From the NCBI GenBank assembly GCA_029262065.1, contig JAJDAC010000015.1, forward strand, positions 1-64,000: a DNA stretch of 64,000 nt, given 5' to 3'. The position numbers and the translations under genes are program-made. The first letter of the stretch is position 1. Every line of letters begins with the position of its first letter. Shown here in pieces: positions 6,235 to 7,522 of the stretch. The notes beneath the pieces are model-generated. The model saw nothing but the letters and a program-made list of their open reading frames with translations. It did no database searches and had not been told where the DNA came from. Source of the DNA: Candidatus Krumholzibacteriota bacterium. Lineage in GTDB: Bacteria; Krumholzibacteriota; Krumholzibacteriia; JAJRXK01.

Positions 6235-6621
6235 TCAGCCGGGCTTGGCGCTCCGATTCAACACGCCAGTGTAGGAACCGCGGTAGGCCCAACCCAGAAA
6301 CACGGTGAGGATGAGTGTGAGTGCGGCAATGGGCAGCCCCGCCGGATCCAGCACTGTGTGAAAGTAGAAGATCACCACCACCACCGGAGCCAAGAGGATC
6401 AACGCCAAGGGGACCGTGAATCCCGCGAGCAACATGGCGCCGGTTCCAACCTCCACCACCTTCACCAGATTGATCAGTCCCGATTCGGCCAATGCGCCGA
6501 AAAACGCCCCGGCGCGCTCGTTGACTTCGGGCGGCGGCAGAAAATTGAAGAATCCGTTCAGCCCAAACACGAAGAATATGAGTCCCAGCACCAGCCGGGC
6601 TATCAACACAACCTTGGCCAT
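6235..6621 (-). CDS. DoxX-like small membrane protein
   Basis: The 128-residue, four-helix integral membrane protein starts at an ATG preceded by GGAGAG. The first helix has the DoxX-type pattern (LIARLVLGLIFFVFGLNGF), followed by a short re-entrant region and three more hydrophobic segments, the fold of DoxX/DUF417-like proteins. It lies 34 bp downstream of the peroxiredoxin selenoprotein on the same strand, so the two probably form an operon. DoxX proteins are often linked to redox and thiol-stress systems, which fits this context; its biochemical role is unknown. Confidence 0.75.
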   Translation of the reverse strand: MAKVVLIARLVLGLIFFVFGLNGFFNFLPPPEVNERAGAFFGALAESGLINLVKVVEVGTGAMLLAGFTVPLALILLAPVVVVIFYFHTVLDPAGLPIAALTLILTVFLGWAYRGSYTGVLNRSAKPG

Positions 6622-6655
6622 GGTCTCTCCTTGAATCGAGGACGCGACGAACGTC

Positions 6656-7303
6656 CTACTCGGAATCACCCTCGGGTGTCGGCACGAACGACTTGGCCGC
6701 CGACAGGACAACCTCCGGCGCCAACCTGGCCCGGTAGTTCACGTTCGTGTAAACGAAATCAATGATCTTGTCCGCGCCCACGATATACACCGCCGGCACC
6801 GGCAACAGATGATGGTCCATGCCCGTGTGCTTCTCCAACATGCCGTAATAGCCCTCGTTCGCTTCCACGAACGACAGTCCGAACGCGGTGGACGCGTGCA
6901 TGGGAGGGTCGGAATAGAATTTGGCGTCCAGCTTGTGCGCCGCACGCATCTTGCGCAAGTGCACGGGGAGATCCTGAGAGACGATCAGTATCTCGTAACC
7001 CAACGCCACCAACTCTGCTTCGATTGAACGCAGCTCACCGAGCTGCCGATTGCAGTGAGGTCACCAGACTCCCCGGTAGAACACCACAATAGCGGGTGAG
7101 TCCCCCACCGCTTCGAACAGCGTCGTCGCCTCGCCGCCGACGGTCATGACCTCGGCGTCCGGCATCGATTGTCCCGCCTGGAGCGGAGTGGTATCGGCGG
7201 GGTCGGTGGGCATCTGGGCCGACGAAGGGGTAGCGAGCATCAAAACCAGGCCCAACGGTGCAATCAGCTTGGCGGCCCCGGCCGTCCAGCGTTGTAGCTT
7301 CAT
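6656..7303 (-). CDS. AhpC/TSA-family peroxiredoxin-like selenoprotein (Sec81)
   Basis: Read through the in-frame TGA at 7063-7061, the gene gives a 215-residue protein. It has a signal peptide (ends near SSAQ), a thioredoxin-like fold start, and the active site FYRGVW-U-PHCNRQL, where family members normally have FYRGxWCPxC. Residue 81 is therefore inferred selenocysteine, with Cys84 as resolving residue (UxxC). The frame before and after the TGA is the same and both halves are family-like. A SECIS-like hairpin starts 15 nt after the TGA. The start is the ATG with GAGGAAACG upstream. It should be an exported peroxide- or thiol-reducing enzyme. A DoxX gene follows in the same operon. Confidence 0.85.
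7030..7046 (-). promoter_or_regulatory. SECIS-like hairpin of the peroxiredoxin gene
   Basis: Reading the minus strand, GCAGCTC-GGT-GAGCTGC forms a perfect 7-bp stem with a GGU loop. The loop starts 22 nt after the TGA. Bacterial SelB-binding SECIS elements sit directly 3' of UGA and need a G in the apical loop, which is met here. Confidence 0.75.
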
Positions 7304-7522
7304 CGTTTCCTCGATCCAGGGGGTGAACGCAGTAATTCTACCAGAACTGTACACCCATGCCGGAATGGGCGCGAGCCACGATTCTCCCAAGCCAGCCCGC
7401 CAAAAACCCAAGAACAGGGGCTCCAACCGCCGGCATGGATGAGAGCAGTATGAGAACCGGGCATTGTTATTGGGTTAGACTTGAAGAGGGCAAAGCTACC
7501 GAATCCGGCGTGGAGTGGAATC

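Follow-up and report, generated by a model that had tools for sequence, protein, structure and literature searches.

We analysed a 64,000-nucleotide stretch of a genome from the poorly known phylum Candidatus Krumholzibacteriota (contig JAJDAC010000015.1, positions 1 to 64,000; hereafter the window) and identified on its minus strand, at 7303..6656, what is almost certainly a genuine bacterial selenoprotein gene, as judged from the sequence and its homologs. The gene would encode a peroxiredoxin-like (Prx-like) protein of the AhpC/TSA family, 215 residues long, in which an in-frame UGA is read as selenocysteine (Sec). The explanation that we prefer as a whole, a bona fide selenoprotein gene whose predicted product is an envelope oxidoreductase with a peroxiredoxin fold and a UPHC site, is given a probability of about 0.9.

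Results

The reading frame starts with ATG at 7303, downstream of a ribosome-binding-like GAGGA (7308..7312, minus strand), and runs through 215 codons to a TAG stop with a single internal TGA. This TGA is codon 81 (7061..7063, minus strand) in FYRGVW-U-PHC, where both the frame and the homologs indicate Sec as the first position of a UxxC motif. The second position is Cys84 (TGC, 7052..7054, minus strand); the protein has no other Cys, and no Sec besides Sec81. The first-pass annotation had described an AhpC/TSA family protein with one in-frame TGA, and this was borne out by a Pfam match to AhpC-TSA (PF00578; 1.9e-18, 67 bits, cut-off 26) that covers residues 44-182 and spans the TGA. The G+C content at third codon positions is 0.80 on the 5' side of the TGA and 0.79 on the 3' side; at second positions it is 0.53 and 0.37. 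In the window TGA is otherwise an ordinary stop: of the 45 stop-to-stop frames with 300 or more codons, 24 end in it. Automated annotation would probably end the gene at the TGA and leave an 80-residue fragment.

The genome to which the window belongs (5.77 Mb, a draft of 59 contigs, 95.6% complete) contains a tRNA-Sec with the anticodon TCA (71.6 bits), SelB on contig C58 (354 bits against a cut-off of 242), SelA (468 against 268) and SelD (336 against 125). All four components were found above their cut-offs, including SelB and tRNA-Sec, without which the first-pass reading could not stand. By all of these genome markers, the organism is predicted to be able to read UGA as Sec. Detection of tRNA-Sec in 69 of 80 genomes examined from the phylum (E <= 1e-9) indicates that Sec decoding is the rule there. 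The SelD of this genome (L021, G000:C48:88900-89832) is a candidate selenoprotein in its own right, with TGA in frame within AAGUAAK. Roughly 1.7 kb separate a translational GTPase-like frame (L014, G000:C17:49623-50312) from the tRNA-Sec gene; the frame scores 79 bits to SelB, below the cut-off.

A search of the phylum at E <= 1e-15 gave matches in 4 of the 80 genomes, the window's genome among them. TGA occupies the identical codon in three further genomes of the phylum, G002 and G077 (40% identity each) and G054 (30%), and the second match in the window's own genome (contig C41) is a Cys paralogue that has no signal-like N-terminus. Of 387 genomes searched with a profile at E <= 1e-25, 27 gave a match, weaker relatives being uncounted because of this threshold; three Bacteroidota loci were added. 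Before 35 copies were compared, two rows were removed: L023, which duplicates L052, and a second frame of L048 that was spurious. L028, a weak and partial match within a long unrelated frame, was also excluded. At the Sec column, TGA stands in 13 copies from 12 genomes, counting that of the window, and TGC or TGT in 22; every one of the 35 has Cys at the second motif position. The in-frame UGA is therefore aligned with the conserved redox Cys of the homologs, as is characteristic of selenoproteins. No other TGA is found within the domain in the 13 TGA copies; L037 and L038 each carry one as the terminal stop.

Sec and Cys forms were intermixed in the tree of the 35 copies, with at least 8 state changes, and a single Sec clade was rejected (p-AU 7e-6); 13 of the 32 inner branches are shown open owing to weak support. 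The tree has two broad groups: one is rich in signal-like N-termini (the window, G002, G077 and others), and the other has for the most part a longer N-terminus that is not signal-like (L038, L045, L051, L055 and others). At L061 (G117:C101), a duplicated selenoprotein pair, two Prx-like proteins stand in tandem; both have a signal-like N-terminus, TGA at the identical site and extra sequence ahead of the domain, and their GGU hairpins are near-identical. At L059 (G381:C1), two Prx-like domains are fused in one frame, with CPFC in both.

The 7-bp hairpin with a GGU loop that had been noted downstream of the TGA is present at 7030..7046 (minus strand). Recognised by folding and homolog comparison, it is bSECIS-like and consists of a 5' arm GCAGCUC (7046-7040), the loop GGU (7039-7037) and a 3' arm GAGCUGC (7036-7030). 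We checked it by scripts against the published model because an Rfam scan of 6500-7500 gave chance-level matches only. In the text available of PMC13188914, the bSECIS model has a loop of 3-9 nt, a stem of 4-16 bp, a UGA-to-loop distance of 16-37 nt, G within the first two loop positions and an MFE <= -7.5. The window hairpin begins 15 nt past the UGA and falls within all of these limits (GGU loop, 7 bp, a 21-nt gap and -11.7 kcal/mol for +11..+36). Taken alone it is only modestly unusual, as dinucleotide shuffling of the 51-nt stretch gave an equally good fold in 26 of 200 cases and its p value against a synonymous-codon null is 0.045.

It is across the homologs, rather than in the window alone, that the predicted hairpin signal is strong. 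The MFE of +11..+36 was <= -7.5 in 12 of the 13 Sec copies versus 2 of the 22 Cys copies (Mann-Whitney on energies, p 4.9e-6). When the genes were recoded synonymously, each according to its own codon usage, the combined p was 2e-7 for the Sec copies and 0.30 for the 22 Cys copies, and among the Sec copies p was <0.05 in 8 and <0.1 in 11, with L043 (0.43, no distinctive hairpin) and L051 (0.15) counting against the signal; all hairpin p values are to be read as guides, the copies being related and the region having been chosen with knowledge of the window's hairpin (although its position lies within the published range). GGU stands at +22..+24 in 6 of the 13 Sec copies and in 1 of the 22 Cys copies; it is missing in the other 7 Sec copies, and the stem register is shifted relative to the window in the more distant ones. 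The stem positions +18/+28 are paired (GC, AU or GU) in 13/13 Sec and 12/22 Cys copies, and in G002 both sides of this pair are changed relative to the window by synonymous codons (CAG..CUG vs CAA..UUG) with the pairing kept. The comparison describes a cleanly defined Sec/Cys family with Sec forms spread across it, in which the SECIS hairpin is gained and lost along with Sec. The loop GGU also encodes the Gly of QLGEL, a position held by N, K or R in several of the Cys homologs; therefore, the protein sequence may be under constraint from the SECIS.

In the phmmer alignment to the solved structure 2cx3, a thiol peroxidase of the BCP/PrxQ type, wCphC of the query falls over fSpvC, with Sec81 on Ser and Cys84 on a Cys that we take to be the peroxidatic one. 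The Ser position of this motif is Thr in most peroxiredoxins. The earlier claim that the TGA replaces the peroxidatic Cys was thus not upheld: Sec81 lies at the Ser/Thr position of TxxC and Cys84 at the peroxidatic position, so the site is of a thioredoxin-like UxxC type. An AlphaFold model with Cys substituted for Sec (pLDDT 81, pTM 0.77; signal region <50) has a peroxiredoxin fold, with a Z score of 21.2 to S. solfataricus Bcp4 (3hjp_A; rmsd 2.1, 158 residues), and its helix 82-92 begins directly after Sec81. Foldseek matches to the model also include ResA-type thiol-disulfide oxidoreductases.

The protein is probably exported. A probable signal peptide, read by eye in a low-confidence region of the model, covers residues ~1-30 and ends in ...PSSAQ (7214..7303, minus strand). 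The gene doxX (6235..6621, minus strand) starts 34 nt downstream on the same strand, with AAGGAG just before its ATG, and the two genes are likely co-transcribed. It encodes a DoxX-family membrane protein of 128 aa without Cys (PF07681; 4.8e-07, 30.8 bits, gathering cut-off 23.6). The first-pass annotation had regarded an exported, DoxX-paired protein as an unusual setting. Export is not unusual, because signal-like N-termini are common among the relatives, Sec and Cys alike, but the pairing with DoxX was seen at the window copy only. A single-sequence search of 34 loci (~1.5 to 3 kb of flank), which a divergent DoxX could escape, found no significant DoxX beside the other copies (best E 0.13). 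Scans next to the copies in G002 and G077 gave a DJ-1/PfpI protein and a protein that matches no Pfam family. A conserved prx-doxX operon is not supported by these searches.

Discussion

The TGA could in principle be a true stop or a miscalled TGC/TGT, leaving a dead gene or an ordinary Cys enzyme, since a single base separates these codons and the assembly is a draft of 59 contigs. However, the identical codon is TGA in 12 other copies, the third-position bias and conserved residues persist 3' of it, and the hairpin enrichment is confined to the TGA copies. We consider a pseudogene or sequencing error very improbable and rejected it, the independent TGA copies counting against it. An altered genetic code in which TGA encodes Trp would keep the frame open, with just one TGA inside. 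This reading was rejected and deserves practically no credence: TGA is a normal stop that closes 24 of the window's 45 long frames, all 22 of the non-TGA copies have Cys as the homologous residue, and the genome contains the complete Sec machinery.

In the selenoprotein reading, sequence and comparison together suggest that the UGA would be decoded as Sec by the organism's own SelA, SelB, SelD and tRNA-Sec, directed by the downstream bSECIS hairpin. The product would have a peroxiredoxin fold whose thioredoxin-like UPHC site lies where helix 82-92 begins. Sec81 may attack a peroxide or a disulfide, with Cys84 as the resolving residue; because the protein has no further Sec or Cys, the catalytic cycle would close as a Sec81-Cys84 selenenyl-sulfide. 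An envelope thiol system might then re-reduce the enzyme from the cytosol, perhaps via the DsbD-family protein of this genome, in which one DsbD_TM protein scored above the cut-off. Most likely, the predicted protein is an extracytoplasmic thiol/selenol oxidoreductase, with a peroxide or an oxidised thiol of the envelope as its substrate. Its role as an envelope redox enzyme appears quite probable, and the chances are even that its substrate is a peroxide rather than a protein disulfide.

The protein might instead be a true selenium peroxidase, in which Sec81 attacks peroxide and Cys84 resolves despite the shifted position. The peroxiredoxin fold of the model and the BCP-type thiol peroxidases among the best sequence matches argue for this. 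However, the TxxC/TxxU motif is lacking, Sec being at the Thr/Ser position, and among the 6 members of A1, 5 match profiles of thiol-disulfide oxidoreductases such as ResA; we hold a true peroxidase to be plausible, at somewhat below even odds. It has also been considered that the Prx-like protein and DoxX are dedicated redox partners in the envelope, with DoxX passing membrane (quinone) electrons to the selenoenzyme. The genes adjoin on the same strand with a gap of 34 nt. Such a pair is nevertheless unlikely, given that a search with this DoxX gave nothing significant at the other loci of the comparison, that the scanned neighbours in G002 and G077 are of other kinds, and that the window's DoxX has no Cys. 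The wider idea of an extracytoplasmic branch of Prx-like selenoenzymes, which would cross the membrane as selenoproteins, work with a membrane partner (DoxX here) and clear envelope peroxides or repair oxidised thiols, is doubtful.

The envelope oxidoreductase reading can be set beside the known selenoprotein families. The best NCBIfam match was the SelL-related redox protein NF040769, but at 47.1 bits against a cut-off of 120, and membership of SelL was rejected on that score. The SelL motif is UxxU, whereas that of the window protein is UxxC. The Sec-peroxiredoxins (Prx) share the fold and the Pfam family with the window protein; however, Sec stands at the opposite end of the motif here, UxxC instead of TxxU. 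Published Sec-peroxiredoxins carry TxxU and published Prx-like selenoproteins UxxC (PMC1088965, PMC13188914, in the text available). Neighbouring subfamilies by domain in PMC13188914 (text available) are cd02970 Prx-like (UxxS) and redoxin PF08534 (UxxC); the window protein differs from the former in having UxxC and matches PF00578 better than the latter.

By its PF00578 domain and UxxC motif, the window protein is of the Prx-like thiol:disulfide oxidoreductase kind, the activity being a predicted one. According to the available portions of the sources, Sec in UxxC Prx-like proteins has been in print since 2005 (PMC1088965), 225 Prx-like 1 proteins were counted in the GOS survey (PMC2398784), and both a 2026 review (PMC13188914) and a 2022 one (PMC9312934) list the Prx-like UxxC selenoprotein as 'predicted with high confidence'. 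The kind is therefore already known. A text search of the deep-Sep paper (PMC12013277) for five terms gave no match. Our literature search, over texts available in part, turned up neither an exported Prx-like selenoprotein with UxxC nor a pairing of Prx with DoxX, which is no proof of absence, and the descriptions of the kind in the available text of PMC13188914 and PMC2398784 do not mention export. Likened by these descriptions, the window protein shares with the Prx-like thiol:disulfide oxidoreductases (UxxC/UxxU; the 'Prx-like 1' of GOS) the PF00578 domain, the UxxC motif (here UPHC) and many Cys homologs (PMC13188914, PMC2398784). What it adds, and what is particular to it within this known kind, is the probable signal peptide and the doxX neighbour.
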